This document shows positions 3,387-6,218 of a DNA stretch of 64,000 bases, one piece after another; within the stretch, counting starts at the first letter, position 1; each line of letters opens with the position of its first letter. A program made the position numbers and the translations under genes. The stretch covers positions 124,001 to 188,000 of the forward strand of contig NZ_JANLNM010000008.1 of NCBI RefSeq assembly GCF_024701975.1, in the 5' to 3' direction. A model generated the notes under the pieces. That model was not told the DNA's origin, made no database searches, and saw only the letters and a list, made by a program, of their open reading frames with translations. This DNA is from Variovorax sp. ZS18.2.2. GTDB taxonomy: Bacteria; Pseudomonadota; Gammaproteobacteria; Burkholderiales; Burkholderiaceae_C.

Positions 3387-3758
3387 ATGGAATCACCACT
3401 CGGCACCGTCATCTTCTACGCCAGGGACATGCAGAAATCCGCGGCCTTCTATGCCCGGCATTTCGGCTTTGTCACCAGCGGCGAAGTTGTCGAAGGACTG
3501 ATCGAGCTGACGCATCCGGACGGCGGCGCGGGCATCCTCATCCATCAGGCCGCCAAGTCCGTGAAGCTCGGGCAGGTGGGCGTGAAGCTGAGCTTCCATG
3601 TGAAGGATGTGAAGGCGTTTGCCGCGCAGGCGGCGCTTCAGGGTCTGGTGTTCGGGGCCGTGCATGAGGCCAATGGATATGCATTCGCCAATGCCAAGGA
3701 TCTCGACAAGAACTCGATCAGCATCTCGAGCAGGGCACATCGGGCTGCCACGGTTTGA
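3387..3758 (+). CDS. VOC (glyoxalase/bleomycin-resistance) family protein
   Basis: 123 residues from ATG 3387, the length of a single-module VOC protein. The start matches the family: GTVIFYARDMQKSAAFYARHFGF is the typical beta-alpha opening in which the partner enters, followed by a second strand set (GVKLSFHVKDVKAFAAQA) and the last strand (YAFANAKDLDKNSISIS). VOC proteins include glyoxalases, dioxygenases and antibiotic-binding proteins, usually as metal-binding dimers. The substrate cannot be inferred. It lies 69 bp before polB, but a shared function is unlikely. Confidence 0.8.
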   Translation: MESPLGTVIFYARDMQKSAAFYARHFGFVTSGEVVEGLIELTHPDGGAGILIHQAAKSVKLGQVGVKLSFHVKDVKAFAAQAALQGLVFGAVHEANGYAFANAKDLDKNSISISSRAHRAATV

Positions 3759-3827
3759 TGCGGCCGTGACCGGGCGAAAATCGGTCGCTCCAGCCGCCTC
3801 CTGCTGCACCCGATTCTTCAAGCGCTC

Positions 3828-6218
3828 GTGACATCCACCGACCTCAAGGGCTTCATCCTCACTCGCCACTGGCGGGATGCGCCAGCCGGCACGGAGATCG
3901 AGTACTGGCTCGCAACAGATGCCGGGCCGACCAAAGTGGTCCTGCCCTCCCAGACCTCCGTCGCATTCGTCGCAACCCGGCACAGGGCTCAGGTGGAAGC
4001 GCACCTCGCGGCCATGCCGGGCGTGGAGGTCCGTGAGCTCGCGCTGAAGACCTTCCATCAGGAACCCGTCGTCGGTGTCTATGCGAAGCACTTCCGCCAG
4101 CTCGGCCGGCTGGCGCGTGCCCTCCAGGCGGAGAGCATTCCCCTGCTCGAAGCCGATGTGCGTCCGCACGACCGCTACCTGATGGAACGCTTCATCACCG
4201 CCGGCGTGCTGGTGGAGGGCGGGCAGGCAGACCGCGCCACCATCGTCGACTGCAGGCTCAAGCCCGCGCCCGAATACCGGCCGGTGTTGAAGGTGGTGTC
4301 GCTGGACATCGAGACGAGCCAGCACGAAGCGCTCTATTCCATTGCGCTGGATGGTTTGCCGGACCGCGTCGTCTTCATGCTGGGTGAGCCGCCACGCGAA
4401 TCGAGCGAGCCAAGTGAACCAGCCGAGCCCACGGACTTCTCGCTCGTCTATTGCCCGACCCGCAAGGCCATGATCGAGAGGCTCAACGACTGGTTCGAGC
4501 GGAACGACCCGGACGTTCTCATCGGCTGGAACGTCATCCAGTTCGACCTGCGGGTGCTCCAGAAGACGGCCAACGAATGCGGGGTGCCGCTCCTCCTGGG
4601 GCGGGAGCGACGGCCCATCGAATGGCGCACGCACCCCGGCAAGCAGGGCTACCTGTTCGCGCCCACGCCCGGCCGGGTGATCATCGACGGCATCGACGCG
4701 CTGAAGGCTGCTGTATGGAGCTTTCCTTCCTTCAGCCTGGAGACCGTCTCGCAAGCGCTGCTGAGCGAGGGCAAGGCCATCGGAGACGACTACGACAAGA
4801 TGGCGGAGATCGAGCGGCGCTACCAGGAAGACAAGCCGGCACTCGCGCTCTACAACATCCGCGACTGCGAGCTGGTCCTGCGCATCTTCGACAAGGCGAA
4901 GCTGCTGCAGTTCGTGATGGAGCGCGCCCAGACCACGGGCCTTCCGGCCGACCACTTCGGCGGCTCCATTGCCGCGTTCAGCCATCACTACCTGCCGCGC
5001 ATGCATCGCCTCGGCTACGTGGCGCCGAACGTGGGCGAGATTCCGACCAAGGCCTACCCCGGCGGGTACGTGATGGACTCGAAGCCCGGGTTCTACGACT
5101 CCGTCGTGGTGCTGGACTACAAGAGCCTCTACCCGTCGATCATTCGCACCTTCCTTGTCGACCCCGTGGGCCTCGTGGAAGGCACCCACGCCGCCGACCC
5201 GGCGACGGTCGTCAAGGGGCCGCAAGGAACCGTCTTCTCGCGCGAGAAGCACTGTCTGCCGGAAATCGTGACCACGCTCTGGCGCGCCCGGGACGAAGCC
5301 AAGCGGGACAAGAACGAGCCGCTGTCACAAGCACTGAAGCTGCTCATGAATTCCTTTGCCGGCGTGCTCGGCGCAGCCGACTGCCGCTTCTTCAATCCCA
5401 AGCTCGTGTCCGCCATCACCCTTCGGGGGCACGAGATGATGAAGCTCACGCGCGAATTCGTGGAAGAGCGGGACTACGAGGTCATCTACGGCGACACCGA
5501 CTCCATCTTCATCTGGCTCAAGCGCACCCACACCAACGAAGAAGCGCACGCCATCGCGGCGACCCTGGCGAGAGACATCAACGCGTGGTGGACCCGCTCT
5601 CTCCGCGAAGCGCACGGCCTCGCGAACTTTCTCGAGATCGAGTTCGACACCCACTACAAAAAGTTCTTCATGCCGACCATCCGCGGCTCGGAGGTTGGCA
5701 GCAAGAAGCGGTATGCAGGCTTGAGCGTCGATGCCAAGGGGAAAGAGGAAATGGTCTACCGCGGCCTGGAGATGGCCCGCAGCGACTGGACCCCGCTGGC
5801 GCGCCAGTTTCAGGAAGGGCTGCTCTCGCGCATCTTCCACGACGAGCCCTACAAGGAATTCGTGACCGACTATGCAGAGGCGCTGCTGGCGGGCGAGATG
5901 GACGACCTGCTCGTCTACCGCAAGCGCCTGCGCCACCGCCTCGATGCCTACCAGGTCAACGTACCGCCGCAGGTGCGCGCCGCAAGGGTTGCCGACGACT
6001 ACAACGCGCGGATCAACCGTCCGAAGCAATACCAGAACGGCGGCTGGATCCGGTACGTCATGACCCAGGGCGGGCCCGAGCCCATGGAGATTCGCCAGTC
6101 CCGAATCGATTACGAGCACTACCTGAGCAAGCAGCTCCAGCCGATTGCCGACGCCATCCTCCAGCCAATGGGCGAGAGCTTCATGGCCCTGACGACGGCA
6201 CAGCAAGGTCTTTTCTAG
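3828..6218 (+). CDS. polB: DNA polymerase II (family B)
   Basis: 796 residues from a GTG start, the normal size of bacterial Pol II, which acts in repair, restart and translesion synthesis. The 3'-5' exonuclease is complete: Exo I DIE at 160-162, Exo II GWNVIQFD ending at D240, Exo III YNIRD at 342-346. Polymerase motifs: A, DYKSLYPSIIR from 430; C, YGDTDS at 554-559; B, KLLMNSFAGVLG from 504. In motif B the tyrosine found in nearly all family-B enzymes (N-S-x-Y-G) is Ala511, an unusual change treated as a finding. I saw no LexA-like CTGT-N8-ACAG box just upstream. It is monocistronic. Long minus-strand frames opposite it are codon-bias shadows. Confidence 0.96.
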   Translation: MTSTDLKGFILTRHWRDAPAGTEIEYWLATDAGPTKVVLPSQTSVAFVATRHRAQVEAHLAAMPGVEVRELALKTFHQEPVVGVYAKHFRQLGRLARALQAESIPLLEADVRPHDRYLMERFITAGVLVEGGQADRATIVDCRLKPAPEYRPVLKVVSLDIETSQHEALYSIALDGLPDRVVFMLGEPPRESSEPSEPAEPTDFSLVYCPTRKAMIERLNDWFERNDPDVLIGWNVIQFDLRVLQKTANECGVPLLLGRERRPIEWRTHPGKQGYLFAPTPGRVIIDGIDALKAAVWSFPSFSLETVSQALLSEGKAIGDDYDKMAEIERRYQEDKPALALYNIRDCELVLRIFDKAKLLQFVMERAQTTGLPADHFGGSIAAFSHHYLPRMHRLGYVAPNVGEIPTKAYPGGYVMDSKPGFYDSVVVLDYKSLYPSIIRTFLVDPVGLVEGTHAADPATVVKGPQGTVFSREKHCLPEIVTTLWRARDEAKRDKNEPLSQALKLLMNSFAGVLGAADCRFFNPKLVSAITLRGHEMMKLTREFVEERDYEVIYGDTDSIFIWLKRTHTNEEAHAIAATLARDINAWWTRSLREAHGLANFLEIEFDTHYKKFFMPTIRGSEVGSKKRYAGLSVDAKGKEEMVYRGLEMARSDWTPLARQFQEGLLSRIFHDEPYKEFVTDYAEALLAGEMDDLLVYRKRLRHRLDAYQVNVPPQVRAARVADDYNARINRPKQYQNGGWIRYVMTQGGPEPMEIRQSRIDYEHYLSKQLQPIADAILQPMGESFMALTTAQQGLF

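Follow-up and report, generated by a model that had tools for sequence, protein, structure and literature searches.

A DNA polymerase II clade with a small residue in place of the motif-B tyrosine in Variovorax and related bacteria

The polB gene and its surroundings

The window analysed here, a stretch of 64,000 nucleotides from Variovorax sp. ZS18.2.2, carries on its + strand a polB gene (positions 3828 to 6218) that begins with a GTG start codon and encodes a protein of 796 residues, with no stops within the frame. The initial annotation had assigned it to DNA polymerase II (Pol II), and this assignment is borne out by profile matches, as the protein scores 1316.8 bits against the NCBIfam equivalog NF004422 (curated cut-off 1103) and contains the Pfam domains PF00136 and PF03104 along with the Pol II N-terminal domain PF21474 (E 2.1e-20) and the insertion domain PF22587 (E 1.2e-17). 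By its length and domain content, the open reading frame is a genuine full-length Variovorax Pol II, and it is the sole match to PF00136 in the 7.2 Mb host genome. Variovorax sp. Root473 encodes an identical protein, and the closest named row in the 159-row tree set described below is that of V. beijingensis (88%). The best of five AlphaFold2 models (built from 30 aligned sequences) reached a mean pLDDT of 84.9 and a pTM of 0.79, the five models spanning 54.0 to 84.9, and a Foldseek search with the predicted model returned E. coli Pol II entries as its first 11 PDB matches, the best fold match being 3k5l (TM 0.92 by query length, 56% identity). Like the window protein, E. coli Pol II (polB; 1q8i, 3k57) is a full-length, equivalog-level enzyme with the N-terminal and insertion domains, the exonuclease and polymerase motifs and a C-terminal LF. 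In the window protein the latter belongs to Q792xxL795F796 (6201 to 6215, + strand), which we take to be a sliding-clamp binding motif and whose L and F are kept in 53/53 rows of the clade defined below.

Alignment placed the catalytic motifs, all on the + strand. Motif A (DYKSLYPS, D430-S437; 5115 to 5138) has Leu434 and Tyr435 unchanged in the places of RB69 Leu415 and Tyr416, motif C (YGDTD, Y554-D558; 5487 to 5501) has its catalytic Asp and Thr557 (RB69 Thr622) intact, and D430, D556, D558, K504 and N508 align with RB69 D411, D621, D623, K560 and N564. All three exonuclease motifs are intact, as had been claimed: Exo I (D160-I-E162-T; 4305 to 4316), Exo II (G233-W-N to D240; 4524 to 4547) and Exo III (Y342 to D346; 4851 to 4865) supply D160, E162, D240 and D346, which align with D114, E116, D222 and D327, the four exonuclease carboxylates of RB69 named in PMC4142720. 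The window protein also has the GWN of Exo II (G233, W234, N235) that is described in PMC7544198 as a mark of the PolII-like clade.

A small gene of the glyoxalase superfamily (3387 to 3758, + strand) precedes polB in the same orientation, with 69 bases between the two; it is not matched in more than one of 38 related loci. More generally, polB and overlapping frames aside, no open reading frame in the first 12 kb of the window was matched (E 1e-10, half the frame's length) in at least two of these 38 loci (L066-L103). Antisense to polB runs an open frame of 619 codons (3393 to 5252, - strand), as expected of a GC-rich shadow frame, and similar antisense frames cover polB in 26 of the 38 loci. 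A phage origin of polB was considered and rejected: 2,004 phage records match, none of them reaching 60% identity among the 30 matches listed, and a narrow scan of viral contigs returned a single contig, which breaks off within the first 60 residues of a polB 93% identical to that of the window. This IMG/VR contig (IMGVR_UViG_3300048924_000390, 40 kb; L250, 1001-1180) may thus represent a prophage, or a misassigned piece of chromosome, upstream of polB in a relative.

Residue 511 across related polymerases

Motif B spans K504-G515 (KLLMNSFAGVLG; 5337 to 5372, + strand), as read from the translation and the alignment to E. coli Pol II. Its codon 511 (GCC, 5358 to 5360, + strand) specifies the Ala that the initial annotation had reported in place of the motif-B Tyr, and both reference alignments confirm this: in the phmmer alignment Ala511 stands opposite the Tyr of MNAFYGVLG in E. 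coli Pol II 1q8i (Tyr500 when counted from the printed alignment coordinates), and with RB69 gp43, using the sequence from its record, it pairs with Tyr567. Lacking the Tyr that marks canonical Tyr-type Pol II, the window enzyme is a Pol II but not of the Tyr type. Window residues 434, 435, 505, 509 and 511 (L, Y, L, S and A) align with RB69 L415, Y416, L561, S565 and Y567, such that the pocket letters, as aligned, are those of the laboratory construct RB69 Y567A, with the same residue changed to Ala and the other four letters in agreement. The Ala is man-made there, wild-type gp43 having Tyr, and gp43 is a phage replicase, whereas Pol II has N-terminal and insertion domains of its own. An artefact of sequencing or alignment has a negligible probability and is refuted by the gapless alignment of motif B to both references and by the recurrence of the same residue class in independent assemblies from several genera. 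Moreover, all four Ala codons occur at this position among 35 rows with Ala (GCC 26, GCG 5, GCT 3, GCA 1), which together with the stop-free frame places Ala511 beyond chance or sequencing error.

These rows were drawn from overlapping whole-genome samples of the window's own family (200 genomes), order (399), class (369) and phylum (398), from 97 genomes of the family that holds Duganella (that of G206) and from 80 named loci. Matches from the phylum sample were added by fetching 40 places (G1230, G1177 and fragments were left out), and of 27 plasmid places with a full-length gene that of E. coli (H14) alone was taken in, a Diaphorobacter plasmid place (H4) being the contig and place of row L005. 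With two short extracted pieces excluded (L063 and L133, both Tyr), 221 PolB rows were aligned, L001 and L002 being the window's own gene. Residue 511 is Tyr in 166 rows, Ala in 35, Cys in 15, Val in four and Ser in one, and 54 of the 55 non-Tyr rows (51 distinct proteins, as three pairs are one sequence from two collections) fall into one well-supported clade. Outside it Tyr occupies this position in 166 of 167 rows. Among the 80 named loci alone, the counts were Tyr 42, Ala 23, Cys 11, Val 3 and Ser 1.

The clade comprises Comamonadaceae (Variovorax, Acidovorax, Comamonas, Curvibacter, Pseudorhodoferax, Rhodoferax and Diaphorobacter), which have Ala in 35 of 36 rows and Ser in one, the Oxalobacteraceae Duganella and Rugamonas with Cys or Val, Luteibacter with Val and a genome of another class with Cys; Rugamonas fusca (L115) is of the Tyr type. 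The small-residue Pol II is, on these alignments, a clade-wide variant and not the oddity of one genome. An Ala common to all Burkholderiales, which the initial annotation had proposed to look for by alignment, is rejected, as the rows examined from Paraburkholderia, Caballeronia, Cupriavidus, Massilia, Janthinobacterium and Herbaspirillum have Tyr. Full-length polB was found in 13 of the 200 genomes of the own-family sample, the window's included, with Ala in 12 and Tyr in one divergent row (L014, 53% identity). Eleven of the 12 Ala genomes have one polB match each, while the twelfth (G079) has two short pieces (L018, L019) beside its full gene; no genome with both a Tyr-type and a small-residue Pol II was seen in the samples examined. 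In three further genomes of the 200, tblastn located polB fragments alone (L015 in G120, L016 in G136 and L017 in G190), from which it seems that polB has been lost repeatedly in the window's family; these pieces and those of G079 are 56-76% identical to the window gene.

To place the change, trees were inferred without the columns concerned. A FastTree of 159 rows (motif-B columns removed) gathers 53 non-Tyr rows into a single starred group (99), with one other Cys row, L020, inside the Tyr rows, while a quick tree of 66 selected rows under a mixture model (trait columns removed) recovers a starred 24-row small-residue group (99) that includes L187, and needs two changes between Tyr and a small residue in all. 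Rows L102 and L187 sit on long branches of the latter tree and their exact place is less sure. Judged from these topologies, the Tyr-to-Cys change of L020 is an independent loss outside the clade. The trees themselves give no direction of change, but Tyr is also present in 27 more distant Pol II rows and is kept in three more distant (presumably archaeal) family-B sequences aligned with the window protein, which makes it likely that Tyr was lost and that the small residue is derived. Row L187, the Cys row from another class (genome G1044), has Leu505, Ile562 and His376 (see below) and keeps His715; the other 16 of the 17 genomes in its order lack a match, which suggests that its polB was acquired by lateral transfer.

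Linked substitutions, constraint and the upstream region

Comparison of the conserved positions revealed how narrowly the clade departs from the Tyr rows. At 160 positions a residue is conserved in at least 95% of 105 Tyr rows, and 53 clade rows depart (under 10% of them with the Tyr-row residue) at only five: Arg376 to His, Ile505 to Leu, Tyr511 to a small residue, Val562 to Ile and His715 to Gln. Leu505 (RB69 Leu561; 5340 to 5342, + strand) is found in 51/51 distinct clade proteins and 0/166 Tyr rows, all 166 of which have Ile; His376 (4953 to 4955, + strand) replaces an Arg present in 163/166 Tyr rows, with His or Gln in 50/51 clade proteins and 1/166 Tyr rows; and Ile562 (5511 to 5513, + strand), just after motif C, replaces a Val present in 165/166 Tyr rows, with Ile in 47/51 clade proteins and 1/166 Tyr rows. 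As Gln715 is found in 16 Tyr rows too, position 715 was left out of the linked set. At 376, 505, 562 and 715 E. coli Pol II has Arg, Ile, Val and His, where the window protein has His, Leu, Ile and Gln, and its Tyr500 stands against Ala511. Burkholderiales enzymes of the Tyr type (Paraburkholderia, Massilia, Cupriavidus and Herbaspirillum), of the same family and 54-60% identical to the window protein, combine Tyr511 with Ile505 in the rows examined, and L020, which falls among them, combines Cys with Ile505, whereas the window protein combines Ala511 with Leu505. L020 shares none of the clade residues at 376, 505, 562 and 715; this lone Tyr-to-Cys row, without Leu505 or Ile562, offers a natural control.

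The main rival to a loosened active site follows from this linkage: Leu505, together with Ile562 and His376, might refill or re-form the pocket, such that Tyr was exchanged within an equivalent packing and selectivity stayed near that of an ordinary Pol II. The linkage of Leu505 to the small residue is perfect, the independent loss in L020 came without Leu505 or Ile562, and the linked residues, shared by almost every clade row and even by the deep-branching L102 and L187, therefore date to the base of the clade or near it. The change at 511 is thus old and may be compensated. On the other hand, Ile-to-Leu and Val-to-Ile exchanges gain little volume, and wild-type RB69 polymerase itself has Leu at the position of Leu505 next to Tyr567, yet is reported to be loosened by Y567A (PMC3377560), making Leu505 alone no obvious substitute for the Tyr. 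On balance we regard compensation to near-ordinary selectivity as unlikely, though it deserves to be taken seriously.

A second rival holds that Pol II is dispensable and the gene relaxed or decaying, Tyr having drifted away without functional gain. The scarcity of full-length polB in the family, the three genomes with only fragments and the variation of residue 511 among A, C, V and S would fit such a history. The rest of the gene argues against it: changes are confined to five of 160 highly conserved positions, Comamonadaceae maintain Ala in 35/36 rows although all four Ala codons are used, and D160, E162, D240, D430, D556, D558, K504 and N508 are kept in 53/53 clade rows (at 346 one row has E and the other 52 have D, and at 235 seven rows have S against 46 with N). 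Pairwise omega also resembles that of the Tyr rows, with a median of 0.239 and a maximum of 0.531 in the clade (1118 pairs with 0.1 < dS < 1.2) compared to a median of 0.227 in Tyr rows (3048 pairs), where the highest value (1.084) is between very distant rows; these pairs are non-independent and dS is rough in GC-rich genes. By this measure, constraint on the clade Pol II is similar to that on Tyr-type Pol II, and we consider decay improbable.

We also searched the upstream regions for CTGT-N8-ACAG, which we take to be a LexA-type box, in up to 300 bases upstream of polB (fewer in L097 and L122). In 13/13 named Oxalobacteraceae loci of the clade an exact box precedes the polB match start by 28-57 bases, compared to one of 24 named Ala/Ser loci (L073, at -219), none in Luteibacter and 0/42 Tyr loci. 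A matrix scan (score 14 or more) adds the Ala/Ser loci L080 and L081 and five Enterobacterales Tyr loci, but as the matrix was partly built from boxes that it finds, only the exact-pattern count is independent. No exact LexA-type box was found in the window, and the best matrix score upstream of its polB (-1.9) was reached by 121 of 200 shuffles, leaving no convincing box; the close upstream box that marks an SOS-induced Pol II is absent here. The host genome has 17 exact sites versus 13 for a reversed control pattern, indicating that across the genome the pattern by itself hardly exceeds chance and that the case for the Oxalobacteraceae boxes lies in their fixed place beside polB. These sequence patterns support SOS control of polB in the Oxalobacteraceae branch of the clade, with no site in the window.

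A proposed role for the small-residue polymerase

Tyr567 of RB69 polymerase is one residue through which family-B base selectivity has been studied by mutation. In the wild-type enzyme, ordered waters are described as linking Y416, Y567 and T622 to the minor groove (PMC3799440). For Y567A, published accounts report lower discrimination with better extension of mismatched ends (PMC3377560) and, opposite guanidinohydantoin, an insertion efficiency raised more than 100-fold with extension past the lesion blocked (PMC3978516). That block, and the statement that the mutation does not alter the catalytic parameters of RB69 polymerase (PMC3792054), weigh against a relaxed, bypass-competent enzyme. 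As chemistry, the analogy to Y567A drawn in the initial annotation is sound, the mutant being less discriminating, better at mismatch extension and over 100-fold more efficient at lesion insertion. According to PMC11253446, E. coli Pol II is an auxiliary polymerase that combines high fidelity with a proficient exonuclease; its inserted domain is reported to tip the balance towards polymerisation and away from proofreading (PMC4142720).

In the window enzyme, removal of the Tyr would open space in the pocket and take away the water-linked contact to the minor groove. The opened pocket would tolerate distorted pairs, such as damaged templates and mispairs, and extend them more readily, while the retained exonuclease would remove part of the resulting errors. 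The likely job of such an enzyme would be damage bypass or the extension of stalled ends, with base choice more relaxed than that of a Tyr-type Pol II. Taking together the clade-wide loss of Tyr, the intact exonuclease and the behaviour of RB69 Y567A, we favour, with a probability of roughly 0.55 for the whole, the reading that the window protein is a working, proofreading polymerase that serves in bypass or extension with relaxed base choice, the low selectivity being carried over from RB69. The first interpretation thus holds for the gene, the substitution, the equivalent RB69 residue and the exonuclease motifs, whereas its picture of the enzyme is altered by the sharing of the substitution across a clade and by the linked Leu505.

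As PF00817, the domain of Y-family polymerases, is matched twice in the window's genome, bypass need not depend on polB, and the rarity of polB in the family, with its occasional fragments, indicates that its contribution to fitness may be modest. Pol II itself is a known enzyme; the small-residue clade is real and apparently new, having no description that we found in the open-licence literature, where such silence is weak evidence. The portion of a broad PolB survey at hand (PMC7544198) describes a Pol II group G1 without mention of it.

A broader proposal, which we advance tentatively and rate at somewhat under even odds, is that a Pol II subfamily that still proofreads gave up its motif-B Tyr under selection, permanently loosening the minor-groove check in favour of bypass and mismatch extension and placing the gene under SOS control in one branch. 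The Ala, Cys, Val and Ser members of the clade with their linked Leu505, set beside the L020 loss without it, form a ready comparison set that could ask whether selectivity was given up with proofreading kept, what compensates, and whether oxidised guanine is bypassed. If the proposal is true, laboratory fidelity mutants have a natural counterpart with compensating changes of its own, and an error-tolerant polymerase like the one engineered in the laboratory may already have arisen in nature.
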